Virus record (IMG/VR): IMGVR_UViG_3300038701_001933
Span: 1 to 61,553 of that record
Strand: one strand, 5' to 3'
Length of the DNA: 61,553 bases
Origin: a virus
Of this stretch, positions 14,375-40,949 are shown piece by piece (within the stretch, counting starts at the first letter, position 1; every line of letters begins with the position of its first letter). Position numbers and translations under genes: made by a program. The notes beneath the pieces were generated by a model. It saw only the letters and a list, made by a program, of their open reading frames with translations. It did no database searches and was not told where the DNA came from.

Positions 14375-14659
14375 ATGGATAAGCATTCTTGGAAAGATGA
14401 AGCACTTTGTTTGGGATATGACACTAATTTCTTTTTTGACAAATATGAAGAAGAGGAACAGTTTCGCCCTGCAATTGATAAGCTATGCTCTGAGTGCCCC
14501 GTTATGAAAGAATGCTTTGCCGCTGGCGTCTCTCAGAAAGAGTGGGGTGTCTGGGGAGGCATTTATTTTGAAAATGGAAAAATTTCCAGGGAATTTAACA
14601 ATCATAAAACTAAAAATGATTGGTCTGACACCTGGGAAAACTTAACGATGGATAGATAA
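14375..14659 (+). CDS. whiB: WhiB-family iron-sulfur transcription factor
   Basis: This 94-aa protein has the four-Cys [4Fe-4S] arrangement (EALCLG, then CSECPVMKEC) and the G[VI]WGG turn in EWGVWGGIYF. WhiB proteins are confined to actinobacteria and their phages and bind the principal sigma factor. Phage copies can dominate host WhiB genes, so this one is a candidate for the switch that redirects host RNA polymerase. It is the strongest host marker in the window. Confidence 0.93.
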   Translation: MDKHSWKDEALCLGYDTNFFFDKYEEEEQFRPAIDKLCSECPVMKECFAAGVSQKEWGVWGGIYFENGKISREFNNHKTKNDWSDTWENLTMDR

Positions 14660-15540: not shown

Positions 15541-16038
15541 GTGCAAACATTTTTGCCATACAAGGACTTTGACAGAGTTGCAGAGGTTCTTGATAATCGT
15601 CGTTTGAATAAGCAAATCTTGGAGTGCTACCAGGTACTCAATGTTTTGTCTAACCCATCACCTACCGCTGGATGGCGCAACCACCCCGCTGTAGTTATGT
15701 GGAGGAACCATGAGTTTGCTTTATACAATTATGTACAAGCAATGATTCTTGAGGCTAGCGCCAGGGGTATTAAGACAGATAAGAACTCTTCAAACATTGA
15801 TAGGTTACGCCATCAAAGAGGACTCGGTTGGGGTTTAAGAAACCCAGGGTGGTATTCAGAAAAGCGTGTAATGAAACGAATTACCACTACTCACAAAGCT
15901 AACCTATTTAAGAAAGAGCCAGAGTCATACCCACAATTTTTTAAAGCACTTAATAATAAAAACAACCAGCCATGCTGTGATCGTTGTCAGTATTACTGGG
16001 TAAATCATTTGGAGGAAAATGCTAACCTATTGGGTTGA
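15541..16038 (+). CDS. Pyrimidine dimer DNA glycosylase-like protein
   Basis: This 165-aa protein starts at GTG with MQTFLPYKDF, LDNRRLNKQ, GWRNHPAVVMWRNHE and ARGIKTD, which resemble the MSMEG_6728/Pyr_excise family (relatives of T4 DenV). It is a possible UV-damage repair enzyme. The C-terminal CCDRC is an addition of unknown role. AGAGGAGA precedes the start. Confidence 0.7.
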   Translation: MQTFLPYKDFDRVAEVLDNRRLNKQILECYQVLNVLSNPSPTAGWRNHPAVVMWRNHEFALYNYVQAMILEASARGIKTDKNSSNIDRLRHQRGLGWGLRNPGWYSEKRVMKRITTTHKANLFKKEPESYPQFFKALNNKNNQPCCDRCQYYWVNHLEENANLLG

Positions 16039-24189: not shown

Positions 24190-24393
24190 GTGAATAACAC
24201 TCTAGAAGTTTCTGCTGATGAAATCAAAGAGGCAATGATTAAGGATTGGGAAAAATACGGCTATTGCCCCAAGTATGATGAATATTGCCCCTGCGATCGT
24301 TATAGAGACTATATTCAAGGCTTCTTTGACAGAGAGTTCGGTGGATGGGCTCAGGCAAAGAAAGAATACGACCTTATTAAAGGAGAGAAATGA
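24190..24393 (+). CDS. Small hypothetical protein (67 aa)
   Basis: GTG start after GAGGAGGGG. It contains GYCPKYDEYCPCDRY (three Cys) and GGWAQAKKEY. It is the first gene of the operon that includes the MSEYTPTT family. Confidence 0.55.
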   Translation: MNNTLEVSADEIKEAMIKDWEKYGYCPKYDEYCPCDRYRDYIQGFFDREFGGWAQAKKEYDLIKGEK

Positions 24394-24686
24394 TGAGTGA
24401 GTACACACCAACTACCGCAGAAGTTAAGTCTCGGTATTACTCGGATTATTGGTGGCGTGTGGATGGCGCAGATGCAAATTCGTTTTATTCTGAGTTTGAC
24501 CGTTGGCTAGCACAGCATGATGAAGAAGTAGCGGCTAAAGCAAAAGATGAAGTTGCTAACGATGAACTTAAACGAATTGTTCGTTTATTAGAGGGGCGGG
24601 TTATTTTTTGTCACACTAGTTTTGCTTTACATGACGAATTGCCTGGATTGTATGCTGCGCTTCGACTTGTTACGGGAAACAACTGA
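24393..24686 (+). CDS. MSEYTPTT-family paralogue 1
   Basis: This 97-aa protein begins MSEYTPTTAEVKSRY and has EFDRWLAQHDEEVAAKAKDE in the middle. It shares N-terminus and core with the genes at 24844 and 25274 and is joined to its neighbours by TGATG overlaps. Similar proteins occur in actinophages without known function. Confidence 0.65.
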   Translation: MSEYTPTTAEVKSRYYSDYWWRVDGADANSFYSEFDRWLAQHDEEVAAKAKDEVANDELKRIVRLLEGRVIFCHTSFALHDELPGLYAALRLVTGNN

Positions 24687-24844
24687 TGAGTGAGTACACA
24701 CCAATTGAAGAAAAAGTGATGCAAGCCATTGGCGAAGCGTCAATGTGTTGGAGTGAAACGCCTAACGGTGTGTTTGAATCTGAACGTGCTATCGCTATTG
24801 GTAAACGCCTTGCCGCACTTATTAAGACAGAGAAAGAGAACTGA
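24686..24844 (+). CDS. MSEYTPTT-family short paralogue 2
   Basis: A 52-aa protein that keeps the MSEYTP start but lacks the FDRWLA core, and ends IKTEKEN. Both ends overlap neighbours in TGATG. It looks like a truncated family member. Confidence 0.6.
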   Translation: MSEYTPIEEKVMQAIGEASMCWSETPNGVFESERAIAIGKRLAALIKTEKEN

Positions 24845-25125
24845 TGAGTGATTACACGCCAACGACGGTAGAAGTGGGAGACGCTTACGACTCTTTCATG
24901 ATTGAGTTCAAAAACGACTACACCGGAGACAATCAGTTTGACCGTTGGCTTGCTGAGCATGATGCTGAGGTGGCTAAAGCTGAACGTGAGCGGATTGTTG
25001 TTTTGCTTAATGGTTTCAGGGAACGTCTTTATGATGATGCAAATGATTCTGATGACCCAGCCTGGGATATTGAACGTGCCGAAGCTGTCGAAACTTGTAT
25101 CACACTTATCAAGGGAGAGAACTAA
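24844..25125 (+). CDS. MSEYTPTT-family paralogue 3
   Basis: A 93-aa protein with MSDYTPTTVEVGDAY, QFDRWLAEHDAEVAKAERER and a C-terminal ETCITLIKGEN. It is a full-length family member. Confidence 0.65.
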   Translation: MSDYTPTTVEVGDAYDSFMIEFKNDYTGDNQFDRWLAEHDAEVAKAERERIVVLLNGFRERLYDDANDSDDPAWDIERAEAVETCITLIKGEN

Positions 25126-25277
25126 TGAGTGAATATGGCACTTATGGGAACAAAAAGAACCTCAAATTGAGCATTGGGGAATTTATTTTAAAACGTTCTT
25201 GGGTGGACTCTTTGGGGCTAAAGGCTTTGTCTAAGCTGCGAGAATCTGTTTCTGGCGAAAAGGGAGAGAGCGAATGA
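25125..25277 (+). CDS. MSEY-family short paralogue 4
   Basis: A 50-aa basic protein keeping MSEY and then diverging (GTYGNKKNLKLSIGEF). TAATG joins it to the gene before. Only the start region is shared, perhaps because the translational signal was duplicated. Confidence 0.5.
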   Translation: MSEYGTYGNKKNLKLSIGEFILKRSWVDSLGLKALSKLRESVSGEKGESE

Positions 25278-25582
25278 GTGAGTACACACCAACCACAGAG
25301 CAAATGCGTGATGACTATGTTTGGTGGAACACGCGCGATGATGGTGTAGGGCCAGTGAATTGGTGGATAGCTGAAGGCAAGTTTGACCGTTGGCTTTCAG
25401 CACGTGACGAAGAGATTGTTGCTCGTACCCTACTTGCTTTAGCTAAGCCGTTGCATGTTGAGCTGACCGCCGCTTTAGATGGTAATGCCACAGGGTATGT
25501 TTTTGAAGAGTACCCTGGCGGTGGATGGCGTACTTGGGTTTCTGATGCTAGGAAACTTATTAAAGGAGAAACCAATGAGTGA
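25274..25582 (+). CDS. MSEYTPTT-family paralogue 5
   Basis: A 102-aa protein with MSEYTPTTEQMRDDY, KFDRWLSARDEEIVARTL and ARKLIKGETNE. It is a full-length family member and overlaps both neighbours. Confidence 0.65.
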   Translation: MSEYTPTTEQMRDDYVWWNTRDDGVGPVNWWIAEGKFDRWLSARDEEIVARTLLALAKPLHVELTAALDGNATGYVFEEYPGGGWRTWVSDARKLIKGETNE

Positions 25583-29577: not shown

Positions 29578-29971
29578 ATGCTCCAACTCCTTTGACTCCG
29601 TATTCTGCAAGGTATACATCTCTAGGATACTCTACATCAGTGTGTTTCACAAATCCCCCAGCCCTGTCCCAAGCTTCTTCATTAATCTCAATCTGCTTAG
29701 TCTTATAGTTATAAACAGGTACGTCGTATCCATCACCTCCGCCAGACAGCTTGTTGACAGATAGGCCTACCCCAGTTTCTTTATTCCAATCAGTTCCAAT
29801 TACTCTTGAGATAAAGATACGGGTAAAGTATGATTCGTCACCATCACGGCTCATCGCATGTGCAATTGCATTAGCAACAATCTCATGCCTGTCCAATCCT
29901 CCCCAATGGATATAGAGGAATACTGTATTGCCATCGGTACCACGAATTCCAACATTAGCACGGTCACCCAT
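29570..29971 (-). CDS. Conserved phage GDRANV-type protein
   Basis: This 133-aa protein starts MGDRANVGIRGTDGNTVFLYIHWGG, a widespread phage family that often lies among early genes and has no known function. The start overlaps the stop of the upstream gene (TGATG). Confidence 0.65.
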   Translation of the reverse strand: MGDRANVGIRGTDGNTVFLYIHWGGLDRHEIVANAIAHAMSRDGDESYFTRIFISRVIGTDWNKETGVGLSVNKLSGGGDGYDVPVYNYKTKQIEINEEAWDRAGGFVKHTDVEYPRDVYLAEYGVKGVGAYV

Positions 29972-30159
29972 CACTTAGCCTTTCTTTCATTAATTAGTTT
30001 AGCTGTTTCGATTGCTAGGTCAGCCCGAGAATCTTCGAACTCTTCCCATTCTACATCCGACCACTGACTTACATCGACATACTCGACACGGTCATTCTCG
30101 ATACCAGTGAAATCTCCAGTACCCCACATGCCGTACTCAGTAATCCAAATGTTTTCCAT
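29971..30159 (-). CDS. Small hypothetical protein (62 aa)
   Basis: Acidic and Trp-rich (MENIWITEYGMWGTGDF). It is coupled by TAATG to the gene at 30159-30275. No family is recognised. Confidence 0.5.
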   Translation of the reverse strand: MENIWITEYGMWGTGDFTGIENDRVEYVDVSQWSDVEWEEFEDSRADLAIETAKLINERKAK

Positions 30160-30275
30160 TATTTAATCTTTCCTAAGATGGCTTGCACTTCTGCCAATTG
30201 TTCGGGGGTAAGGCTATCAATAACCTTCATCCCATGACTAACTACATTATCTAATGCTTGCTCTAATTCGTTCAT
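30159..30275 (-). CDS. Small helical protein (38 aa)
   Basis: MNELEQALDNVVSHGMKV, first gene of the six-gene unit. TATAGT of the special promoter lies exactly 6 nt before the ATG, so the message should be leaderless. Confidence 0.55.
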   Translation of the reverse strand: MNELEQALDNVVSHGMKVIDSLTPEQLAEVQAILGKIK

Positions 30276-30281
30276 GCTTCC

Positions 30282-30305
30282 ACTATACCTTCCACCACTG
30301 ACATT
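30282..30305 (-). promoter_or_regulatory. AATGTCAGTGGT-class promoter, copy 1
   Basis: Read leftward: AATGTCAGTGGT, 6 nt, TATAGT, then 6 nt to ATG 30275. It drives the unit 30275 to 28819. Confidence 0.75.
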
Positions 30306-30317
30306 GGGCCGATCTGA

Positions 30318-30443
30318 TTACAGGATGTCTTTGTCTTTAAATTGTTCTTTGGCTTCATCACTAAGTAGCGATGCAGATACTCCAGTCATTAAAGAGTAAC
30401 TTGGTAAAACAAAGTAATCCTTTTCTTCTTCAGCTTGCGACAT
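30318..30443 (-). CDS. Small hypothetical protein (41 aa)
   Basis: MSQAEEEKDYFVLPSYSLMT after a GGAGAGCAGGAG ribosome site. It is the last gene of the unit under the promoter at 31233. Confidence 0.5.
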   Translation of the reverse strand: MSQAEEEKDYFVLPSYSLMTGVSASLLSDEAKEQFKDKDIL

Positions 30444-30522
30444 GATATATCTCCTGCTCTCCTTCACAGATATTACAAAACGGGGTACAGTCAAAGTTAC
30501 CCTCATGATTAGGACATTCCAT
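30430..30522 (-). CDS. Cys-rich microprotein (30 aa)
   Basis: MECPNHEGNFDCTPFCNICE has four Cys and one His arranged like a zinc knuckle. It starts in a TAATG overlap and ends inside the next gene's ribosome site. Confidence 0.5.
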   Translation of the reverse strand: MECPNHEGNFDCTPFCNICEGEQEIYHVAS

Positions 30523-30632
30523 TATTCTCCACCTTCATTGCAGAAACAACTACAGCCCCCACAACAATCTTTGTGTGCCCCCGAAAGGCAATAAAACAAT
30601 TCGTAAGAATCTCTACCTGTAGCTTGGGTCAT
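30522..30632 (-). CDS. Cys-rich microprotein (36 aa)
   Basis: The C-terminal half is CCGGCSCFC plus an upstream YC, six cysteines in about 22 residues, a probable metal-binding peptide. It overlaps the previous gene by 20 nt. Confidence 0.5.
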   Translation of the reverse strand: MTQATGRDSYELFYCLSGAHKDCCGGCSCFCNEGGE

Positions 30633-30906
30633 TGCTCACCACCAAGTCTTTATCATTCCAGTTTTTCTTTGTAACAAACCAGCCCATTCGATTAAACCCA
30701 CGATAGCCAGGAATAACATCCAAATAAACACTATTAGCATTGTTATCCACAACAGTCCAAACGTGATAACCATTAAGAGCGGTTTGCTGAACCTTCAGGA
30801 TATCTTCAAAGAAAGCATCCCAATAGTTGTCTACCTCTTTGTTTGTGACATCAACTGGTTTATATTCTGTTGCCCATTCGTTCCAAGAAATAATACCATC
30901 AGTCAT
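30613..30906 (-). CDS. Hypothetical protein (97 aa)
   Basis: An aromatic-rich protein (YWDAFFEDILKVQQTALNGY; PGYRGFNRMGWFVTKKNW). It overlaps both neighbours, indicating translational coupling. Function unknown. Confidence 0.5.
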   Translation of the reverse strand: MTDGIISWNEWATEYKPVDVTNKEVDNYWDAFFEDILKVQQTALNGYHVWTVVDNNANSVYLDVIPGYRGFNRMGWFVTKKNWNDKDLVVSNDPSYR

Positions 30907-31057
30907 TTTCTCTCCTATGTTCTTCCATCAGTTCCTGAGCATAACGCATAACGTTAGTCTTGTCAAGCTTTTTGACCTTACCAGATGTAATAAGCATTAA
31001 CATTGATGATAGCCCCCGCAAATATCCACGGGTATAGTCTGATTCCCTACCTGCCAC
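30899..31057 (-). CDS. Small hypothetical protein (52 aa)
   Basis: GTG 31057 is chosen because GGAGG lies 9 nt upstream; ATG 31066 abuts that site and is less likely. It is basic and helical (GRESDYTRGYLRGLSSMLM). Function unknown. Confidence 0.45.
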   Translation of the reverse strand: MAGRESDYTRGYLRGLSSMLMLITSGKVKKLDKTNVMRYAQELMEEHRREND

Positions 31058-31226
31058 GATAGTCATCCTCCAACTTAGCAATCAAATGGTCATATACTTC
31101 ATACATGGCATCTAACTCAATATAATCAGTAGAGCCAGAACTCACGCTGTGCATCTCATTGGATAGCTCAGAGCGACGGGTATCTAGATAATCAAGAATC
31201 TCATTAACTATTACGTGTCTTGTCAT
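31047..31226 (-). CDS. Helical hypothetical protein (59 aa)
   Basis: MTRHVIVNEILDYLDTRRSE, first gene of a six-gene unit. TATAGT lies exactly 6 nt before ATG 31226 (leaderless). Confidence 0.55.
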   Translation of the reverse strand: MTRHVIVNEILDYLDTRRSELSNEMHSVSSGSTDYIELDAMYEVYDHLIAKLEDDYRGR

Positions 31227-31232
31227 GCTTCT

Positions 31233-31256
31233 ACTATACAAGCAACCACTGACATT
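31233..31256 (-). promoter_or_regulatory. AATGTCAGTGGT-class promoter, copy 2
   Basis: AATGTCAGTGGT, 6 nt, TATAGT, 6 nt to the ATG. It drives 31226 to 30318. Confidence 0.75.
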
Positions 31257-31410
31257 AAGGCCAAAACTTCCACGATTTTGAGACCTTTATCATAAAGACT
31301 TTATAATGTTTAATTATATGTATAAGAAAAAATGCGGTCCCCCATTATTTTTGAAAGGGGACCCCCGACTTTTGGGGTGGGCAGTTTATTGTCATGCCCA
31401 GGACATTACG

Positions 31411-32415
31411 CTACGAGGTCAGCGCCCCGACAACCTGAAGGAGACGATTCTTCTCAGTGTTGATAGCGTGGTCAAAACCACTAGCACCAGCCAGCACAGA
31501 TTCACTGTTACCACCACGCGCATTGCGATACCAGTCAAGTCGCTCAGTCATTGCGTTAAGCGCACCCCAAGCTGTACCAGCAATCATGTGATTGGTGTTA
31601 CCCTGATAGATACCCTCAACAATGTCGAGCTTGTTATTCCACTTGGTCAGTGCACCCTTTTTGTCATCTTCTGGCATAGGGTAAGCAGTCTTAAGAATCT
31701 CAAAAAACTTGTCTTGAGTAATTTCTCGCTCAATCATATCCTGAGCCATTTTGTCAAACTCATCCATGTAGGCGTTAGCCAAGCCAAGTGCCTCACGAGC
31801 TGCCTGCACCTTACCCTGAGCAGTCTGGGTGTGGCGAATCTTGTAAGACTGTTTGATTCCACGGTGCTTACCCACACCACTACCTAGTGCTAGGTTGAGA
31901 GTATTAGCACAGACAACACGCACAGGAGTAACGCTAGCCTGAATAGCAATCGAGCCATCGTGCGAGGTGTTCACCAGCAGATAGCTGTTTACCTTGTCAG
32001 ACACACCACTAGGGTCGAGGACAGTCTCACGCTCTAGTGCAAGCGAGCCAAAGACTTGACGACCACCCTTGATAGAGCCAGCAGTTTCCCAACGGCCACC
32101 GCCATCGAGCAGGGCATCGCCAAAGTCGAACAATTCTTCATTTTGAAGAATACGGTAACGCTCACCAACAATACCGAGAACGTCATTCTGTTCACGATTA
32201 AATGGGTTAGTGCGAACGACATAGTTGTAGTTGCGGTCAGACGCAAAGGTATCGGGCATAGTAACTTCTTCAAGACGAACATTCCAATCTTGAAGGTTAG
32301 CAAGCTCTAGCATTTTTTTGGTAGACACTTCTTCATCGAACACAGTGCCTAGCCCATGCCAGGCAGGTTCGCGGAACGAAGCGAATGATTTGTCGGATTC
32401 TAATTCATGTGCCAT
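31411..32415 (-). CDS. DUF932 / phage-plasmid-like protein
   Basis: This 334-aa protein matches the DUF932 (TIGR03299-type) family: PAWHGLGTVF at the N-terminus, LGIVGERYRILQNEE, VNTSHDGSIAIQASVTPVRV with VCANTLNLAL, then a helical C-terminus. These proteins are common next to replication genes of phages and plasmids; a role in DNA metabolism is suspected but unproven. AGAAAGGTG precedes the ATG. Confidence 0.88.
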   Translation of the reverse strand: MAHELESDKSFASFREPAWHGLGTVFDEEVSTKKMLELANLQDWNVRLEEVTMPDTFASDRNYNYVVRTNPFNREQNDVLGIVGERYRILQNEELFDFGDALLDGGGRWETAGSIKGGRQVFGSLALERETVLDPSGVSDKVNSYLLVNTSHDGSIAIQASVTPVRVVCANTLNLALGSGVGKHRGIKQSYKIRHTQTAQGKVQAAREALGLANAYMDEFDKMAQDMIEREITQDKFFEILKTAYPMPEDDKKGALTKWNNKLDIVEGIYQGNTNHMIAGTAWGALNAMTERLDWYRNARGGNSESVLAGASGFDHAINTEKNRLLQVVGALTS

Positions 32416-32454
32416 GGTGACACCTTTCTGATAGGGGATTTCCTGATATAACTA

Positions 32455-32478
32455 ACTATACTCTTAACCACTGACATT
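32455..32478 (-). promoter_or_regulatory. AATGTCAGTGGT-class promoter, copy 3
   Basis: AATGTCAGTGGT, 6 nt, TATAGT, then a leader of about 35 nt with a ribosome site before the DUF932 gene. Confidence 0.75.
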
Positions 32479-32597
32479 AGCAAGTCTTAATATGCTTTTT
32501 CTTAATTATATTGATAACGTTTTTATAACGGCGCGGGGACCCCAAAAAGGGGGACAGTTTAGATGACATGTCCAGGTCTTTCTCCCCCCAGAGAAAC

Positions 32598-32780
32598 TTA
32601 ATCGATCGACGTCAGGTCATGCGCATAGGCTAGTCCTAGTTCACGCACTTCTGGCCAGCTGTCTCCCTCATATGCAATATCTTCACGATTGAATTTGCGT
32701 AGGGCGTGCTCTTCGCTAAATGCGTTAACCACGTAAGCTTTGACGTCCAATATTTCGAATTGCTTCAATGTCTTACTCAT
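32598..32780 (-). CDS. Small hypothetical protein (60 aa)
   Basis: MSKTLKQFEILDVKAYVVNA, an alpha/beta protein of unknown family. Its ATG overlaps the stop of the gene before by 8 nt. Confidence 0.5.
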   Translation of the reverse strand: MSKTLKQFEILDVKAYVVNAFSEEHALRKFNREDIAYEGDSWPEVRELGLAYAHDLTSID

Positions 32781-32940
32781 CCTCTTCATCCTCTGCAGTC
32801 TTTACAATTGTTTCTGACCAGACACCGTCATAGTAGCTATCTTGGTCTTCTAGATAGATGGCCATAGCCTCGTCTTTAGTGTCAGCTTCGATATCTTCAG
32901 CGTAGTAATCTACCCTTTGCCTGATTGTCCATTTTGCCAT
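32773..32940 (-). CDS. Small acidic protein (55 aa)
   Basis: MAKWTIRQRVDYYAEDIEAD with an acidic tail EDEEDE. It is coupled to the gene upstream by TAATG. The start resembles the 60-aa neighbour in layout (a strand followed by an acidic helix), and both may be related small inhibitors; function unknown. Confidence 0.5.
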   Translation of the reverse strand: MAKWTIRQRVDYYAEDIEADTKDEAMAIYLEDQDSYYDGVWSETIVKTAEDEEDE

Positions 32941-33467
32941 TAGTTGGCACTTCCTCTCTCCATTATCCAGATTAGTGCTTGTGCGGTACGGGGGGTCATT
33001 TGGAATCGTTCAGCCACTTTGGTAACGGCTTCACTCATCTCAGTATACTGTGTCTTGTTAGGGCTGTCAACCTTAGCACCAGCCGCTCTCATCATCCAGA
33101 CATCAATGACAACAGCGTTTTCATCACCAGCGATGGCCCTAGCGAATGCGTTAGTCTTCCTACCCTTGAGAGCGTCATAGCCTAGCAGTAAACTAGCGTT
33201 AGCCATTTTGAGATTGTTGGACAATCCCGTAACGGTCTCGCCTAGTGAGAATGCGATAGCCTTAGAGACATTGCTTGTCCATCGTTCGCGGGGAGAGAAT
33301 GATGAAACAACACTAGCACCAACCTCTAAACTAGTGCCTAGGTTTTCAGCAACCTTATGAGCCACCTTTTCTGCTTCCATATACCAGACTGAGGCTTGCT
33401 CAATCTGACCAAAGGTAGCCTCTAGGCATAAGGCCGTAAAGTTTTCGTAGTACTCGTTCTTAGTCAT
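32940..33467 (-). CDS. Conserved phage protein, DUF7178-like
   Basis: This 175-aa protein has VVSSFSPRERWTSNVSKAIAF, LKGRKTNAFARAIAGDEN, VVIDVWMMRAAG and TPRTAQALIWIM. This is the pattern of a family frequent in actinophage early regions (DUF7178-like), with a helix-hairpin-helix flavour that suggests DNA contact. It is the first gene of a three-gene unit. Confidence 0.7.
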   Translation of the reverse strand: MTKNEYYENFTALCLEATFGQIEQASVWYMEAEKVAHKVAENLGTSLEVGASVVSSFSPRERWTSNVSKAIAFSLGETVTGLSNNLKMANASLLLGYDALKGRKTNAFARAIAGDENAVVIDVWMMRAAGAKVDSPNKTQYTEMSEAVTKVAERFQMTPRTAQALIWIMERGSAN

Positions 33468-33493
33468 AACAACCTTTCTTTGGGGATGTTCTT

Positions 33494-33517
33494 AATATAG
33501 CACCTACCACTGACATT
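33494..33517 (-). promoter_or_regulatory. AATGTCAGTGGT-class promoter, copy 4
   Basis: AATGTCAGTGGT, 6 nt, TATATT, then a leader with AAAGAAAGG before ATG 33467. Confidence 0.75.
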
Positions 33518-33603
33518 GAAGGGTAGCGACCTGATCACCACGGGGGGTCCCCCAAAAAAACCAAAAGGGGGAGAGCCGTAGCCCTCCCCCAGTTATCATT
33601 CCC

Positions 33604-34056
33604 CTAAATGATTTCCATTACAGCACCATAGGTTGATGCGTTCACTTCTTCCTGGTTGGTCATTTTGAGAATACGGAGATTCTTCTCCAGCAACTCTTTG
33701 CGAGTAGTATAGTCACGACCAAAGTGCTCACGCTGGTTAGGCTTTACTGGTACTTCTGGTCGTTTTGGGAACTCTGGAATGGCAGAGGTATCAAAGATTA
33801 ACTCTACCTTGCCACCCATAAAGTGTTCGCTGATACGAATAACAGATTCATATTCATACCCAAACTTGTTAGCATTTTTGCTAACATATTCAGACACAAA
33901 CTTTGCTACTGTTTTCTTGTATTCTTCGTTTGCTTTCTCATACGCCTCACGCTTTGCGGGGTATTCCGCAATATCTTTGTCAATCTCAGCAATACGATTT
34001 TCGATTTGCTCAATCAACTTAGCGGTAGGAACTTTCACACTAATGCTTCTAGCCAT
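33604..34056 (-). CDS. Coiled-coil hypothetical protein (150 aa)
   Basis: A long charged helix (KLIEQIENRIAEIDKDIAEY) followed by a Pro-rich segment (IPEFPKRPEVPVKPNQREHF) and a second helix. GAGAGAGAGAAA sets the start at 34056. Function unknown. Confidence 0.55.
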   Translation of the reverse strand: MARSISVKVPTAKLIEQIENRIAEIDKDIAEYPAKREAYEKANEEYKKTVAKFVSEYVSKNANKFGYEYESVIRISEHFMGGKVELIFDTSAIPEFPKRPEVPVKPNQREHFGRDYTTRKELLEKNLRILKMTNQEEVNASTYGAVMEII

Positions 34057-34125
34057 TACATTTCTCTCTCTCAATAGGGGGTTATTGTGATAGGGCAGTT
34101 TTATATCATACCCAGGATAAGTGAA

Positions 34126-34278
34126 CTACTTTTTGGTAACAGTCGTCCAACGAGGCTGACCGTTCACATCGAGACGAACACGGTAAGTACCGTTTTTGTT
34201 CTCGATAACTTCCTGGACAGTGCCAGAAACGCCAGACTTCTGAGTGGTGAACTCCGAACCGACAGTGATGTTTTCCAT
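34126..34278 (-). CDS. Small beta-rich protein (50 aa)
   Basis: MENITVGSEFTTQKSGVSGT then VIENKNGTYRVRLDVNGQPR, probably an SH3-like small barrel. GAAAGGAAG precedes the ATG. Function unknown. Confidence 0.55.
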   Translation of the reverse strand: MENITVGSEFTTQKSGVSGTVQEVIENKNGTYRVRLDVNGQPRWTTVTKK

Positions 34279-34332
34279 ATTTGCTTCCTTTCGTTATGTG
34301 GCGAGCCAGCCACTGTTTTTGTTGATATATCT

Positions 34333-34361
34333 AGTATGAGGCATAGCAGGGTCAATGTCAA
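34333..34361 (-). promoter_or_regulatory. Leftward TTGACA promoter
   Basis: TTGACA, 17 nt, CATACT, reading into the gene at 34278. It is one of the few units in this block with an ordinary -35 box. Confidence 0.55.
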
Positions 34362-34450
34362 GCCCAAACCGTTGATTTTTGTAACAGTATCATAAACACT
34401 TCTTTGTAGGTTTTATACAACGCGGGGACCCCCCGCCTTTTCAGGTAGGG

Positions 34451-34774
34451 TTAAGCTTCTATCACTTCGCCATTCTTGCAATCATAGATAGCCATTTGAT
34501 TACACACCTCTGCTATTTTCAATGCCTGCTCCCTATCTTTAATGTGAATAGAGTTGTCGATATAGGTGATACCCTCGGATTCCCAGACACCAACGGTAGC
34601 ACCTTTATAAGTATCCATCAGGTCAAGGGCATCAACAATGCCTTTCTTGGTTAGCCTTCCGTGTACTGCTATTCCCTCAGTGGATACCCAATATCCATTA
34701 GACATCATTACCTGCTCCTTAAGGGTAGGGGAACCATCTTCCCCTACCCCGACAATGTAAGTACCGTCTTTCAC
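34451..34774 (-). CDS. Hypothetical protein (107 aa)
   Basis: GTG start overlapping the previous stop (GTGA). Beta-rich N-terminus (MKDGTYIVGVGEDGSPTLKE) and a helical C-terminus with two Cys. No family is recognised. It is the last gene of a five-gene coupled unit. Confidence 0.5.
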   Translation of the reverse strand: MKDGTYIVGVGEDGSPTLKEQVMMSNGYWVSTEGIAVHGRLTKKGIVDALDLMDTYKGATVGVWESEGITYIDNSIHIKDREQALKIAEVCNQMAIYDCKNGEVIEA

Positions 34775-34908
34775 CTAATAATCCTTCCACTGTAGCGGTC
34801 AAGTACCAGTTGGGCTTTTCCGTTTCTGACTAGATAAAGGCCAGTCTGTAGATTATGAACGGGGGACATAGTTTTATCGTTATTCATAACGATGTAGTAG
34901 CCACTCAT
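34771..34908 (-). CDS. Small hypothetical protein (45 aa)
   Basis: MSGYYIVMNNDKTMSPVHNL then LYLVRNGKAQLVLD, a compact beta protein. TAATG at its start and GTGA at its end couple it to both neighbours. Confidence 0.55.
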   Translation of the reverse strand: MSGYYIVMNNDKTMSPVHNLQTGLYLVRNGKAQLVLDRYSGRIIR

Positions 34909-35186
34909 TAGTATAACTCTCTTTCGATAATCCAGGTGTCTAGGTGGTGTTGTTCTACTATAGCGTGAACGGGTGACATTTCCCTACCTCGCCAAAGTGT
35001 GCCTTCGGGTAGTTCTACCATCGCTTCCCATTTGCCCTCGTTAGCCAAGTCGATTGCCTCAACGCATACAGGCACCATTTCTGCGGGTACGGGTGGATAG
35101 TGATTACTAGACAGGTGCCACTGTAGTTGTGCTTCCAGTGGTAAAAAGTCTTCTGCTGCTAATGCTTCTGCTTGCATTCTTCCCAT
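34908..35186 (-). CDS. Hypothetical protein (92 aa)
   Basis: Helical with PLEAQLQWHLSSNHYPPVPA and AIDLANEGKWEAMVELPEG. TAATG overlaps at both ends. Function unknown. Confidence 0.55.
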   Translation of the reverse strand: MGRMQAEALAAEDFLPLEAQLQWHLSSNHYPPVPAEMVPVCVEAIDLANEGKWEAMVELPEGTLWRGREMSPVHAIVEQHHLDTWIIERELY

Positions 35187-35311
35187 TATCCAATCACCTC
35201 GATAGGGTCGCCGTCCCAGTTTTCAATTGCTTCATAGAATTCCCAAGCCGATACTAAACCAGCCTCATAATCTTCTTTGACTTCTAGCACTTGCTCTTTG
35301 TCCATATACAT
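35186..35311 (-). CDS. Small acidic protein (41 aa)
   Basis: MYMDKEQVLEVKEDYEAGLV, predicted helical. TAATG overlaps at both ends. Function unknown. Confidence 0.5.
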   Translation of the reverse strand: MYMDKEQVLEVKEDYEAGLVSAWEFYEAIENWDGDPIEVIG

Positions 35312-35475
35312 TATTCGCTCTCCTTGCTTTCCTCGATGGATTTATTCTTACTTGCCTTGCGAGTGCGAGCACGCTTGGTGCGACTGTCCTCGTGGGGGGC
35401 ACTGGCGTTGCTACGCCTGATTTCACGCATAGCCTCGATGTAAGGCTTGTTCTCGATTCCCTTCTTTTTCTTCAT
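35311..35475 (-). CDS. Small basic protein (54 aa)
   Basis: Very Lys/Arg-rich (MKKKKGIENKPY, RTKRARTRKASKNK), a possible nucleic-acid binder. TAGGTT lies exactly 6 nt before the ATG, so it is probably leaderless and leads a five-gene unit. Confidence 0.55.
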   Translation of the reverse strand: MKKKKGIENKPYIEAMREIRRSNASAPHEDSRTKRARTRKASKNKSIEESKESE

Positions 35476-35481
35476 ACTTAC

Positions 35482-35505
35482 AACCTAGTCCATACCACTG
35501 ACATT
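35482..35505 (-). promoter_or_regulatory. AATGTCAGTGGT-class promoter, copy 5
   Basis: AATGTCAGTGGT, 6 nt, TAGGTT, 6 nt to ATG 35475. Confidence 0.7.
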
Positions 35506-35577
35506 CTCAAGTCTTAATACGGTGTGTCGTAAAATATTTTGTAACAAATTGATAACGCGCGGGGTCCCCCACCCCTC

Positions 35578-35760
35578 CTAGTGGTGAGCTAGCATGTCTT
35601 TCATTTCTTCTTCCCAGTGCTCAGCAAGGGCGAAATAGACAGCATTTCGGGATTCCTCCTCCTCAGACCAGCAAAGGCCACAAATAGGTTCGCCAGACTC
35701 ATTGGGCGACCAGTCGGTGGTAGGGAAACGGCAGACGAAGCAAAGTTCAAAGTTGTACAT
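35578..35760 (-). CDS. Zinc-ribbon microprotein (60 aa)
   Basis: Cys pairs CFVC and CGLC are separated by 20-25 residues, then an acidic helix (WSEEEESRNAVYFALAEHWE). AAAGGATAAC precedes ATG 35760. Confidence 0.6.
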   Translation of the reverse strand: MYNFELCFVCRFPTTDWSPNESGEPICGLCWSEEEESRNAVYFALAEHWEEEMKDMLAHH

Positions 35761-35815
35761 AGTTATCCTTTCTTGTTGGTTAATAAGTGACACTTAACTA
35801 GCACCTAAGTGTCAC

Positions 35816-35980
35816 TTAGAGTTCCATGTCCGCATAGTCGTATTTGCCAATGCGGTAGGCAATGGGGTCTACATTTTTCAATACCTGGCTGGGCAAGTAT
35901 TCGAGGGTACCAATCTTAATAACCTCGTTAGTCTCATCAAGCATTTCGTCAAATCGTTCTTCAAGTTCCAGTTCAGTCAT
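35816..35980 (-). CDS. Small conserved acidic protein (54 aa)
   Basis: MTELELEERFDEMLDETNEV then LPSQVLKNVDPIAYRIGKYD, a pattern I recall from other actinophage small proteins. AAAGGGAGA precedes the ATG. First of a two-gene unit. Confidence 0.6.
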   Translation of the reverse strand: MTELELEERFDEMLDETNEVIKIGTLEYLPSQVLKNVDPIAYRIGKYDYADMEL

Positions 35981-36003
35981 TTGTCTCCCTTTCGTTAATA
36001 ATA

Positions 36004-36027
36004 AACTTACCACACACCACTGACATT
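36004..36027 (-). promoter_or_regulatory. AATGTCAGTGGT-class promoter, copy 6
   Basis: AATGTCAGTGGT, 6 nt, TAAGTT, then a ribosome-site leader for the gene at 35980. Confidence 0.75.
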
Positions 36028-36314
36028 GGGAAGACGACACGCCGATAGATCGGAAATTGCATAAATGTATAATAGAAAGGTGCGTAAATGTATAACAGAA
36101 ATTGTATAGTAAGTCCTGCAGAAACTGTCACAGGTATGTCATAACTGTACCGAAAACGGTATAGTTTTGACATGCAAAACGGTAGCGTAGTGACTGTAAA
36201 AATGGTAGCGTAGTAGATTCATGATTTTTTCACGATCTTCTTAAACATCTTCATAAGCTGTTTATGGAGTAAATGAAAAATCGGGGGGGTCCCCCATACC
36301 CCTAGGGGCATACA
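36028..36314. repeat. Intergenic gap with two direct-repeat pairs
   Basis: No gene is seen. GCrTAAATGTATAAyAGAAA occurs at 36059 and 36082 (23-bp spacing). GGTAGCGTAGT occurs at 36180 and 36203. The gap also has a CGACACGCCG motif at 36035, a degenerate CACGAT repeat at 36230 and a GGGGGTCCCCC palindrome at 36285. Confidence 0.6.
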
Positions 36315-36542
36315 TCACCTAAGTGACATATGCTCCATAGCGGACTTGGGTGCTGGAATATCTTCAGGCTGGAATACAATCCCACAAGCCTCAAGGAATC
36401 GGCGGGAATCGAATCGGTCATTATCCTGAGCCATATACTTGGCAAAGTCACGGCACAAGTCTAGATATTCTTCAGCATCTACTACCTCTTGATATTCTGA
36501 GAGAATCTCGGACACAGCCACATAGTCTTTTCTGGTCATCAT
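36315..36542 (-). CDS. Hypothetical protein (75 aa)
   Basis: A helical acidic protein (SEILSEYQEVVDAEEYLDLC). Tandem ATGs at 36542 and 36539 leave the exact start open. It follows the 64-aa gene by 3 nt. Confidence 0.5.
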   Translation of the reverse strand: MMTRKDYVAVSEILSEYQEVVDAEEYLDLCRDFAKYMAQDNDRFDSRRFLEACGIVFQPEDIPAPKSAMEHMSLR

Positions 36543-36545
36543 TTT

Positions 36546-36740
36546 CTAGAGCCCCTTTTCTACTAGGTCTTTTCCAACTTTTTCCAATGCCTCAGCATAG
36601 ATTACCTCTAGGGCATCTTTGTTTTCCACTGAGAGATACCCGAACAAACTACCGAGCAACATCGTGTCACCCATATCGCCATAGGCAACGGAGTAAGCGT
36701 CACGCATTTCTTGAGGGGTAGGGTTATATTTGTGTAACAT
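36546..36740 (-). CDS. Hypothetical protein (64 aa)
   Basis: MLHKYNPTPQEMRDAYSVAY, then LFGYLSVENKDALEVIYAEA. The NPTPQEMRDAY start recalls the YTPTTEQMRDDY start of the rightward paralogue family, so it may be a distant member. AAAGGAAAAC precedes the ATG. Confidence 0.55.
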   Translation of the reverse strand: MLHKYNPTPQEMRDAYSVAYGDMGDTMLLGSLFGYLSVENKDALEVIYAEALEKVGKDLVEKGL

Positions 36741-36762
36741 AGTTTTCCTTTCGTTTGATTTT

Positions 36763-36786
36763 AGTTTAGCACTAACCACTGACATT
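36763..36786 (-). promoter_or_regulatory. AATGTCAGTGGT-class promoter, copy 7
   Basis: AATGTCAGTGGT, 6 nt, TAAACT. The stop codon of the upstream gene (36785-36787) overlaps the first bases of the motif. Confidence 0.75.
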
Positions 36787-36919
36787 AGTATTCTGACAGC
36801 AGGCAGTATTCGCATTCTGGGCCAGACTCTCCCACAACGTGCCAGGTGTCTTCACCACAGTAGAGGCAAAAGTCCCAGTCTTCGAGAAAGTCCTTTGAGA
36901 GTTGTTCGGTCATTGTCAT
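36785..36919 (-). CDS. Zinc-ribbon microprotein (44 aa)
   Basis: CLYC and CEYC pairs about 20 residues apart in an acidic protein. It is a single-gene unit with its own promoter. AAAGGAAAAC precedes the ATG. Confidence 0.6.
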   Translation of the reverse strand: MTMTEQLSKDFLEDWDFCLYCGEDTWHVVGESGPECEYCLLSEY

Positions 36920-36943
36920 AGTTTTCCTTTCGTTGATGTTTTT

Positions 36944-36967
36944 ATTCTAGCAGTGACTACTGACATT
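36944..36967 (-). promoter_or_regulatory. AATGTCAGTGGT-class promoter, copy 8
   Basis: AATGTCAGTAGT, 6 nt, TAGAAT. One base differs from the consensus. Confidence 0.7.
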
Positions 36968-37082
36968 CAGGGCCACGGAGAAAAAGATGACACTCAGTGC
37001 CACGAGCAGAGAAGACATTTTTACCACAGTGCTCGCAACGCAGAACGTCCTCATCGAGCAGGGTAGAGAATTCGTGAACCAT
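36957..37082 (-). CDS. Zinc-finger-like microprotein (41 aa)
   Basis: MVHEFSTLLDEDVLRCEHCG then TECHLFLRGPEC, a possible Cys/His zinc site. AAAGGAAAAC precedes the ATG. Its 3' end overlaps the next promoter. Confidence 0.55.
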   Translation of the reverse strand: MVHEFSTLLDEDVLRCEHCGKNVFSARGTECHLFLRGPECQ

Positions 37083-37106
37083 AGTTTTCCTTTCTTTGAT
37101 ACTTCT

Positions 37107-37130
37107 ACAGTAGCACCGACCACTGACATC
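37107..37130 (-). promoter_or_regulatory. AATGTCAGTGGT-class promoter, copy 9
   Basis: GATGTCAGTGGT, 6 nt, TACTGT. Confidence 0.65.
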
Positions 37131-37194
37131 CGCAACTGTTTTTCCTACAAAGTTTGGGATGTCTTTTTGTAGGTCGTAAACAATGCTTCGTAAG

Positions 37195-37215
37195 TTATCC
37201 ACAAAGTTATCCACA
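37195..37215. other. Tandem perfect DnaA boxes
   Basis: TTATCCACA occurs twice, at 37195-37203 and 37207-37215, beside a GGGGGTCCCC palindrome at 37219. Confidence 0.6.
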
Positions 37216-37259
37216 GCCGGGGGTCCCCGCTTCACAGCTTTTTCTCAGGGAAAACGACT

Positions 37260-37391
37260 TTAGTAGTCGTCGCCCCCAATAGAAGTAGCCACCAGATAGT
37301 GACCACCCATAGCCGCACCAGCGAGGAAGCACTCCTCGTGGTCAACAACCCCATCGCGGGGCTCATCACAGAACATGCAATCGATAATCAT
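37260..37391 (-). CDS. Cys/His microprotein (43 aa)
   Basis: MIIDCMFCDEPRDGVVDHEE then CFLAGAAMGGHYL, a likely metal site of Cys and His. AAAGGAGAT precedes the ATG. The upstream sequence has the promoter layout but only a weak match to the motif (37421-37444). Confidence 0.55.
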   Translation of the reverse strand: MIIDCMFCDEPRDGVVDHEECFLAGAAMGGHYLVATSIGGDDY

Positions 37392-37533
37392 GAAAATCTC
37401 CTTTTCGGTTCGTTAGAATAAACTTACCACAAAGTTATAGGATTAGCAAGTCTTAGTCGTAAATAAGTTGTAACGTTTTGATAACGGTGGGGGTCCCCGA
37501 TTTTTGCGGGTATGTCAAGTCTAAAAGACTAGC

Positions 37534-37698
37534 CTAAGCATATAGACTGTAGTCTTCTAGAATAGCCATATAGTCTCTGGAATCATTCCAGTATGGCTGA
37601 GCATAAGCTACAGCTTCTTCACGAGTAGCGAATTCTACATACTCAACACGTTCGTTGATTGGAAGAGCTTTCTTTTCGATAACCTTTACTTTGAACAT
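37534..37698 (-). CDS. Small hypothetical protein (54 aa)
   Basis: MFKVKVIEKKALPINERVEY then REEAVAYAQPYW, an alpha/beta fold. It uses a different upstream element (ATTGCCAAAA at 37758). Confidence 0.55.
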   Translation of the reverse strand: MFKVKVIEKKALPINERVEYVEFATREEAVAYAQPYWNDSRDYMAILEDYSLYA

Positions 37699-37900
37699 TT
37701 TACTACCTAACTTTCTATTTACTATTCTTTAACCTTATGACTATAGTCTCTCACACTATTGCCAAAATATCAAGAGGCAAAACCTACAAAGTTTATAGGT
37801 TCTTTTTGTGGGACATCTACAACGGGGGACCCCCGTTTTCAGGAAACTCTCAGGTTAGGCTAATATGAAACAAAGAAATAGCGAAACAGCTAAAAATATT

Positions 37901-38047
37901 TCAAGCGTGTTCATTTATTTTCCTTTGAACAGCCATCACTGCCAAAGACACCACAACCCATCCAGCCAAGGCAATAGTGCTATAAGGAAACAGTGCGTCA
38001 GCAAAAGCAATGCAGACCGCAAGATACACTAGTGAGAATGTTTTCAT
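37901..38047 (-). CDS. Two-TM microprotein (48 aa)
   Basis: Two short hydrophobic helices (SLVYLAVCIAFADALF and IALAGWVVVSLAVMAV) with a basic end. Likely inserts in the inner membrane. Co-transcribed with the gene at 38056-38235. Confidence 0.55.
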   Translation of the reverse strand: MKTFSLVYLAVCIAFADALFPYSTIALAGWVVVSLAVMAVQRKINEHA

Positions 38048-38055
38048 CTTTACCC

Positions 38056-38235
38056 CTAGACCGTGCTCGAAATGGTAACAGAGTAGCCATCGAACAACTG
38101 TTCGAGGTCAGCCCAATAGCCTTCACCAAAGCCCACAGAGCGATAGTACTCCTGAGCATTTTTCAAGTTATAGAAATCTACAGAATCTACAACCATTCCG
38201 TTATTGCGATTCCAAATCTTTACCCGATAATCCAT
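38056..38235 (-). CDS. Small hypothetical protein (59 aa)
   Basis: MDYRVKIWNRNNGMVVDSVD then YYRSVGFGEGYWADLE. AAAGGTAAAC precedes the ATG. No family is recognised. Confidence 0.55.
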   Translation of the reverse strand: MDYRVKIWNRNNGMVVDSVDFYNLKNAQEYYRSVGFGEGYWADLEQLFDGYSVTISSTV

Positions 38236-38260
38236 TAGTTTACCTTTCGTTGATGTTTCC

Positions 38261-38284
38261 ATTATAGGGGATACCACCGACATT
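38261..38284 (-). promoter_or_regulatory. AATGTCAGTGGT-class promoter, copy 10
   Basis: AATGTCGGTGGT, 6 nt, TATAAT. The stop codon of the upstream gene (38283-38285) overlaps the motif. Confidence 0.75.
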
Positions 38285-38417
38285 AGCGGGGGTACTCCAT
38301 TCCGATATTGACAAGACCCGAACGGTCATAGGGACAGAATGACTTAGAGAAATCACTCTCAATGAAGATACGGTCACAGGTTACGCACTGACCATAGTGC
38401 TTTTGGTACATTGACAT
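38283..38417 (-). CDS. Zinc-ribbon microprotein (44 aa)
   Basis: MSMYQKHYGQCVTCDRIFIE then SFCPYDRSG, one CxxC pair plus a CPYD, typical of a small ribbon. Single-gene unit. Confidence 0.6.
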   Translation of the reverse strand: MSMYQKHYGQCVTCDRIFIESDFSKSFCPYDRSGLVNIGMEYPR

Positions 38418-38444
38418 TAGTTGTCCTTTCTTTGTTATGATTAC

Positions 38445-38468
38445 AGCTTAACATCGACCACTGACATT
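38445..38468 (-). promoter_or_regulatory. AATGTCAGTGGT-class promoter, copy 11
   Basis: AATGTCAGTGGT, 6 nt, TAAGCT. Confidence 0.7.
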
Positions 38469-38586
38469 ACCAAAGCGACACGCCGTGTTTGTCAAAAATA
38501 ATTTGTAACTCTCAGGTTATTCTCAGGTTCGGGGTCCCCCATTTTTGGCGGTATGTCAAATCGACACACCGACTAAGGCTAATAGA

Positions 38587-38751
38587 TTAACCTTTGTGAA
38601 TAAAGGTTACAATGATGGTAGCACTTGGCTTACCTACATTCTTGTAATCAACTGCTTTACGAGGAGAGCACTTGCAATCCTGCTTACCATGAGTGATTAC
38701 ATCGAGAGCGTCAAAGCCCTCATCCATCTTGTGAATTACTTTCTTGAACAT
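38587..38751 (-). CDS. Small basic protein (54 aa)
   Basis: MFKKVIHKMDEGFDALDVIT then CKCSPRKAVDYKNVG. Two close cysteines. Its upstream region shares ATTGCCAAAA (38807) with the gene at 37698. Confidence 0.55.
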   Translation of the reverse strand: MFKKVIHKMDEGFDALDVITHGKQDCKCSPRKAVDYKNVGKPSATIIVTFIHKG

Positions 38752-38859
38752 ATTATTTCCTAACTCTTAGTTTCTTTATCTTTATATAACTAATCATCCC
38801 ATGGATATTGCCAAAAGTCAAGCGCGACACGCCGATAGGGTCAAAAATAGTTAAAAAAG

Positions 38860-38868
38860 TTATCCACA
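38860..38868. other. DnaA box
   Basis: A perfect TTATCCACA next to a GCGGGGACCCCGC palindrome, in the divergent gap between leftward and rightward microprotein genes. Confidence 0.45.
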
Positions 38869-38936
38869 GGCGGGGACCCCGCGCCGTTACCATTCTGTTA
38901 TAAAAAAGATTGCGACACGCCGTGTTTTGAGTTGCA

Positions 38937-38960
38937 TATGTCAGGGGTATGCCCTAGAGT
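38937..38960 (+). promoter_or_regulatory. AATGTCAGTGGT-class promoter, rightward copy 12
   Basis: TATGTCAGGGGT, 6 nt, TAGAGT, then a leader with AAGGAAAAG before ATG 38999. The same spacing on the opposite strand supports the motif as a true promoter. Confidence 0.7.
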
Positions 38961-38998
38961 ATAAGTATCAACAAAGAAACCAAGAGTAAGGAAAAGAA

Positions 38999-39178
38999 AT
39001 GACCAAGACAGTAACTCTCCTCGATGGAACTGACATCGTCCTCGAATCTGGCTCTGAATGGGGAGATGTTGTCTGCCTCATCTGTGGCTCTGATTACATC
39101 AACGAAGGTTACGGTTACTGTGACGAAACTCTTGAATGTGCATTCGATGAAGGTGAGCACTTGGTCAAGATAGGCTAG
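38999..39178 (+). CDS. Cys-rich microprotein (59 aa)
   Basis: MTKTVTLLDGTDIVLESGSE, then CLICGSDYINEGYGYCDETL with a further C and H, a likely zinc ribbon. It is rightward, opposite to the genes to its left. Confidence 0.6.
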   Translation: MTKTVTLLDGTDIVLESGSEWGDVVCLICGSDYINEGYGYCDETLECAFDEGEHLVKIG

Positions 39179-39201
39179 ATGTCAGCGGTATAGAGTAAAC
39201 T
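39178..39201 (+). promoter_or_regulatory. AATGTCAGTGGT-class promoter, rightward copy 13
   Basis: GATGTCAGCGGT, 6 nt, TAAACT. It begins in the stop codon of the previous gene. Confidence 0.7.
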
Positions 39202-39228
39202 AGAATCAACAAAGAAAGGTAAACTAAA

Positions 39229-39390
39229 ATGGAAACCAAAGGCTACGAAGTTCGAGTCATCAACAACGACAAGTCCGAAGACATCTACATCTATGCACCT
39301 GACCCTGGACGTTGGGGTAAGCTCAACGAGTTTTATGGTCAAGCTGTCCAAGAAGGTAAAATCTTTACCTGCTTTATCCAGATGGTTTAG
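39229..39390 (+). CDS. Small hypothetical protein (53 aa)
   Basis: METKGYEVRVINNDKSEDIY then PGRWGKLNEFYGQ, an alpha/beta microprotein. GAAAGGTAAAC precedes the ATG. Followed by a strong terminator. Confidence 0.55.
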   Translation: METKGYEVRVINNDKSEDIYIYAPDPGRWGKLNEFYGQAVQEGKIFTCFIQMV

Positions 39391-40256: not shown

Positions 40257-40481
40257 CTAGTTTTGTTCATAAGCTTCCCACTTGTTTTCTGGACAATATG
40301 CGTTCGGCAGTGTTGCCTTAAGCTTCATAAAACAACCACAAAGGCCGCATGTTTTCATTTTTTGATTCAAAAGAGGACAAGACAAGCAAATTTCGTATCT
40401 ATTTTGATAGACACTTTCTGGTACGGGTTTTATCCTGGGATCTATTAAATCCCAAGGCATAGCTGGTTTTTCTTTACCCAT
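40257..40481 (-). CDS. CGCFM-type zinc protein, paralogue A
   Basis: This 74-aa protein has RYEICLSCPLL, CGLCGCFMKLKATLPNAYCP and KWEAY, a five- to six-Cys small domain common in phages (DUF6171-like). It is paralogous to the gene at 40752 and overlaps the HTH gene by 8 nt. Confidence 0.7.
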   Translation of the reverse strand: MGKEKPAMPWDLIDPRIKPVPESVYQNRYEICLSCPLLNQKMKTCGLCGCFMKLKATLPNAYCPENKWEAYEQN

Positions 40482-40644
40482 TATCACTTTTTGTTTTAGA
40501 GATATGGCCTATTTTATATTTGCGAAGGTAAATTTCAACAAGCTTCCACGAGACATTGAGTTCTTTACTAATATCAACAGAAGATTTTCCGGCAGCGATC
40601 TGTTCTTTTAAATATTCTTCATTGTGATGCATTTTCATAGTCAT
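40474..40644 (-). CDS. HTH protein (56 aa)
   Basis: EEYLKEQIAAGKSSVDISKE then LNVSWKLVEIYLRKYKIG is a resolvase/MarR-type helix-turn-helix with little else. GGAGAGAG precedes the ATG. It may regulate this small operon. Confidence 0.65.
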   Translation of the reverse strand: MTMKMHHNEEYLKEQIAAGKSSVDISKELNVSWKLVEIYLRKYKIGHISKTKSDNG

Positions 40645-40751: not shown

Positions 40752-40949
40752 TCACCACTTATGCAAAGGACACTCAGCACGACGTAAAGTAGTTTTAAGA
40801 TTCATAAAACACCCACATTGCCTACACTTGGTTAATCTTTTGTCTAGCCATTCACAACTATTGCAAATTTCGAGACGGGATTCAATTAATTCCTTATTAC
40901 TTCTTGGTTGACTAGGATCAAACAAATCAATAAATCTAACATCACCCAT
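40752..40949 (-). CDS. CGCFM-type zinc protein, paralogue B
   Basis: This 65-aa protein has RLEICNSCEWLDKRLTKCRQ then CGCFMNLKTTLRRAECPLHKW, clearly homologous to the product of 40257. Confidence 0.7.
   Translation of the reverse strand: MGDVRFIDLFDPSQPRSNKELIESRLEICNSCEWLDKRLTKCRQCGCFMNLKTTLRRAECPLHKW

Follow-up and report, generated by a model that had tools for sequence, protein, structure and literature searches.

An IMG/VR virus record (IMGVR_UViG_3300038701_001933), a linear and probably fragmentary DNA of 61,553 bases with a guanine-plus-cytosine (GC) content of 41%, here called the window in its full length, carries 13 copies of a promoter-like element in a block of mostly short open reading frames (ORFs). 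Each copy consists of a 12-mer close to AATGTCAGTGGT, six further bases and a TAnnnT hexamer. These 13 elements are probably PafBC-dependent promoters of the RecA-NDp type (probability about 0.8), which would wire the block into the RecA-independent DNA-damage response of the host.

The RecA-NDp promoter has the consensus tTGTCRgtg-8 nt-TannnT and drives most DNA-damage genes of Mycobacterium tuberculosis independently of RecA (PMC5656591, which cites Gamulin 2004). Under this name it has also been found beyond M. tuberculosis, in other actinobacteria (PMC8223512). PafBC, a heterodimer of WYL proteins, inserts between the DNA and sigma domain 4 and so enables RNA polymerase (RNAP) containing sigma-A to work from promoters that have a -26 element; it is activated by single-stranded DNA (ssDNA) and binds promoter DNA only together with RNAP (PMC11804915). 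Judged by its letters, the window motif is the RecA-NDp consensus, with core, gap and -10 all equal. An earlier note on this DNA had proposed a promoter class with an activator site at about -30 to -19, and this proposal is well supported by the published -26 element, which has the same motif and spacing.

All 13 sites listed in that note were located at the ends, spacing and strands it gave, and TGTC.G..GT-N6-TAnnnT is identical in all of them. The core departs from the consensus by a single base at three sites (36944, 38939 and 39180). The preceding dinucleotide is AA or GA at nearly every site, while the six-base spacer is nearly random. The exact pattern TGTCRGTG-N8-TAnnnT occurs ten times in the window, all within 30-39 kb, versus 0.03 expected (maximum 1) from 100 first-order Markov simulations. 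The 8-nt gap to TAnnnT is present at 13/13 sites, and in a scan of spacers from 3 to 14 every other gap yields 0 or 1 match.

The placement of the sites is that of promoters. Each of the 13 reads into an ORF whose first start codon lies 6-39 nt past the hexamer: exactly 6 nt at 30275, 31226 and 35475, as the earlier note had it, which implies leaderless transcripts, and 22-39 nt at the remaining sites. When 153 phage sites are pooled, the ATG stands exactly 6 nt past the hexamer at 25 of them and 22-31 nt past it at most others, and the -10 tends to TATAAT. The leaderless peak at 6 nt independently supports TAnnnT as a real -10. On sequence evidence, the sites appear to carry a functional -10 and a transcription start positioned as in RecA-NDp promoters.

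The description of the class as -35-less is correct in part. An exact TTGACA 16-18 nt from the -10, the signature of an ordinary sigma-70 promoter, is found at none of the 13 window sites, and 9/13 have at most three matching bases; however, the site at 35482 has a 5/6 match at 17 nt, and those at 32455, 36004 and 38445 match TTGACA at four of six positions. Some sites in related viruses are overlapped by a perfect TTGACA. Hexamers with at least four matches accompany 38/153 phage sites versus 15/105 controls, a mild excess which suggests that some sites are hybrid promoters.

The motif recurs at the same spacing in related viruses. In 80 related viral loci (1.36 Mb), gathered through the DUF932 gene of the window (31411-32415), 247 sites are present at N8, the other gaps in the range 4-13 mostly give 0-9, and the reversed motif is absent from the same 1.36 Mb. 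The 33 matches at N13 can arise where the final T of an N8 -10 precedes a second A...T. Copy numbers of 8-26 occur among the relatives; the records G008, G011, G014, G015, G016 and G030 hold 18-26 sites each versus 0-1 control matches, all or nearly all on one, coding strand; where relatives' sites were read out, they lie upstream of a leader or a leaderless ATG. Three sets of promoters in the same context could be compared across four to five phages (the window, L009, L010 and L011, with L016 added for DUF932). All 10/10 core bases are kept in these sets, as opposed to only 3-9/40 upstream and 1-2/6 spacer bases. By their translations, the genes of L009 and L010 are orthologous to those starting at 35475 and 31226, while L011 gives a weaker match at 35475 and an unconvincing one at 31226. 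Because their flanks diverge, the uniformity of the phage sites seems due to selection and not to recent copying.

The promoter of DUF932 itself differs across relatives, being a PafBC-type element, a TTGACA promoter, or both overlapping. Many relatives (L045, L087, L049 and others) have TTTGTCAG without GTG upstream of this gene, between a -35-like TTGCAT and the -10; these sites are perhaps intermediates in promoter switching.

PafB and PafC are present in the candidate host group, which is itself an inferred host: the order of PowLak16_MAG7, a small metagenome-assembled genome (MAG) of freshwater actinobacterial type (~1.2 Mb, ~46% GC), which we take to be Nanopelagicales. A genome-wide scan with a 14-base pattern gave mostly chance matches in unrelated bacteria, and its sole use was as a route to actinobacterial genomes. 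For the DUF932 protein, a 4.7-kb contig from a MAG of this order holds a 71% match; across 198 genomes from Klugiella's order, no match exceeds 40%. WYL genes occur in 81/81 sampled genomes of the candidate order, with two to four in most. PafB and PafC of one such genome match solved PafBC with E values of 5e-28 to 9e-36; the two genes are adjacent in the genomes examined, and in MAG7 the pair adjoins tatA-tatC. The motif occurs 230 times in the 81 genomes versus 68 for the reversed pattern, and the comparison gives 96 versus 6 in Microbacteriaceae, the family of Klugiella. In the candidate order it lies upstream of a LysM gene divergent from lexA and also before genes that, with names read by eye, are DnaE-, DnaN- and RadA-like.

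We infer that PafBC is the activator, that the block is early and that ssDNA arising during infection is the signal. Host RNAP with the housekeeping sigma-A would occupy the TAnnnT -10, and ssDNA-activated host PafBC would bridge the TGTCRGTG element (~-26) and sigma domain 4. A -35 box would be dispensable, its contact being provided by PafBC. The block of small early-type genes would then be transcribed as many short units, and more strongly so once ssDNA is present, be it from infection, phage replication, breakdown of host DNA or prior damage such as sunlight. That this phage lineage runs its early block through host PafBC as a timer or infection sensor, which would be the first PafBC-based viral regulon, is held with somewhat better than even confidence.

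Several points weigh against PafBC control. The case for it is sequence-based, and the assignment of the host, drawn from the 41% GC, the WhiB gene and one 71% DUF932 match, is weak. Phage sites also vary less than those of the host: A is found at the two pre-core bases in 78-84% and T at +9 in 91%, and host sites show neither preference, so the phage sites may be recognised by a second or different protein. Sites with -35-like hexamers could function without an activator. Many relatives have just 0-4 sites, and of 15 cultured actinophages that encode a protein related to DUF932 (phages of Streptomyces, Rhodococcus, Microbacterium, Arthrobacter, Mycobacterium and Gordonia, Samisti12 included), 14 have none. 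The wiring is thus lineage-specific. The remaining record, Microbacterium phage Appa, has two matches within or beside coding sequence, which look like chance and were discarded.

The strongest competing explanation, though an unlikely one, is a phage-encoded activator (WhiB, a small helix-turn-helix (HTH) protein or another early protein) that recognises the 12-mer and acts in a PafBC-like manner; the likeness to the host motif would then stem from mimicry or shared ancestry of the site. The phage motif is indeed longer and more uniform than that of the host, and WhiB and HTH proteins are encoded in the window. However, core and spacing would then both agree with the PafBC consensus by coincidence, and neither the window nor 40 relatives, some of them fragments, yielded a WYL protein. 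Streptomyces phages, MindFlayer and Emma1919 among them, encode a WhiB too, and the latter lacks these promoter sites. The earlier note had inferred that a dedicated factor is needed, with WhiB or an HTH protein of the phage as candidates, or else an alternative sigma; since motif and spacing are those of a host PafBC promoter, this part of it is probably wrong, and the factor is most likely the host's.

An alternative sigma, either of the host extracytoplasmic function (ECF) type or phage-encoded, would read TGTCAGTG as a -35 and TAnnnT as a -10. Two blocks at fixed spacing and the usual lack of TTGACA would fit such a factor. The 8-nt gap, however, is far below the -35/-10 spacing of sigma factors, about 16-19, and the -10 resembles TATAAT. 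Sigma region 2 (Sigma70_r2) was found in 0/20 records (the window and 19 relatives, some of them fragments), and the literature ties the same motif to sigma-A plus PafBC (PMC11804915). An alternative sigma is improbable.

Even less credible is the idea that the sites are decoys, titrating RNAP-PafBC and blunting the host damage response instead of expressing phage genes. Up to 26 copies per phage record would suit this role, but each window site lies at promoter distance from an ORF, many sites are leaderless, and PafBC needs RNAP in order to bind promoter DNA (PMC11804915). A repeat for packaging, recombination or replication (an iteron), suggested by the clustering of the copies in one 9-kb block, is already disfavoured and the least probable of all, as orientation strictly follows each gene, two sites flip together with their genes, the -10 hexamer is tied to the motif, and flanks differ between copies. 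Control by LexA was likewise rejected: the LexA/SOS box CGAAC-N4-GTTCG is absent from the promoters, and its sole exact match in the window (38091-38104) lies inside an ORF.

Table 1. Candidate PafBC-type promoters and associated features of the window (L009 and L010 are related viral loci)
Feature	Position	Strand	Gene or start	Remark
PafBC-type promoter, AATGTCAGTGGT-N6-TATAGT	30282..30305	-	38-aa ORF 30159-30275	Leaderless ATG 30275
PafBC-type promoter	31233..31256	-	59-aa ORF 31047-31226	Leaderless ATG 31226; ortholog recognisable in L009, L010
PafBC-type promoter	32455..32478	-	DUF932 gene 31411-32415	Overlapped by weak -35-like TTGCTA
PafBC-type promoter	33494..33517	-	DUF7178 gene 32940-33467	
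PafBC-type promoter	35482..35505	-		Leaderless ATG 35475; TTGAGA 17 nt from -10
PafBC-type promoter	36004..36027	-	Gene start 35980	
PafBC-type promoter	36763..36786	-	Gene start 36740	
PafBC-type promoter	36944..36967	-	Gene start 36919	One core mismatch (TGTCAGTA)
PafBC-type promoter	37107..37130	-	Gene start 37082	
PafBC-type promoter (TGTCGGTG)	38261..38284	-	Gene start 38235	
PafBC-type promoter	38445..38468	-	Gene start 38417	
PafBC-type promoter	38937..38960	+	Gene start 38999	One core mismatch (TGTCAGGG)
PafBC-type promoter	39178..39201	+	Gene start 39229	One core mismatch (TGTCAGCG)
Early-type block	30159..39390			Mostly short ORFs served by the 13 promoters
Phage WhiB-like protein	14375..14659	+		Earlier candidate factor; superfluous if host PafBC acts

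A possible weak 14th site (AGTCAGTGGT at 30048-30069; AGTCAGTGGTCGGATGTAGAAT at 30044-30069) lies on the minus strand within the ORF at 29971-30159. The unit at 37260-37391 (-) has, in the region 37391-37450, the -10 region of the unit at 36004 (GTGGTAAGTTTATT) without TGTCAGTG, and is perhaps a decayed copy. Two further units of the block, 37534-37698 and 38587-38751 (-), have no motif, and TTGA..TTTTGGCAATA lies upstream of both; TTTTGGCAATA before 37698 and 38751 was considered as a second promoter class and set aside, its frequency being not above chance. Elsewhere in the window, the ORF at 15541-16038 (+) is of the pyrimidine-dimer DNA glycosylase type, a DNA-repair gene (a PF03013 match among the ORFs, assigned by eye). 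Tandem paralogous ORFs of ~95-100 aa with the N-terminus MS(E/D)YTPTT occupy 24390-25582 (+), and two related Cys-rich ORFs (EICxSC..CGCFMxLK) are located at 40257-40487 and 40752-40949 (-).

The PafBC promoter is an already known kind, whereas a viral regulon made of many copies of it appears to be new: full-text searches of the open-licence literature turned up no publication that connects PafBC with the expression of phage genes. The promoter block has no DNA similarity to cultured phages. PafBC control predicts that early gene expression is set by host damage or by ssDNA that the phage makes, in hosts that are probably among the most abundant freshwater bacteria and live under sunlight. 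The orthologous DUF932 promoter provides a natural record of promoter class switching, and the dozens of natural PafBC-type sites at fixed spacing should be useful for work on the mechanism.

The phage sites share with bacterial RecA-NDp/PafBC promoters the TGTCRGTG core, the 8-nt gap, the TAnnnT -10 and a non-palindromic element at ~-26. They differ in occurring as 13-26 copies in one block, in their many leaderless starts, and in two additional conserved dinucleotides, AA preceding the core and GT following it. Streptomyces phage Samisti12 (Stanwilliamsviridae; L378 among the records used here) has a related DUF932 gene, a block of small genes with a promoter each and similar early-gene leaders (ACATCGAAAGG versus ACATCAACGAAAGG), but its promoters are sigma-A-like (TTGnnn-N17-TAGACT) and lack the PafBC motif. 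In some phages the genes are coupled to the SOS system of the host, as in GIL01 through LexA. Both there and in the arrangement proposed here, a host DNA-damage regulator is used as the phage switch; in GIL01 it acts through release of the LexA repressor, whereas here an ssDNA-triggered activator of a RecA-independent pathway would do so. If this is true, phages would detect host DNA damage not only by way of LexA repression but also through an activator that responds directly to ssDNA.

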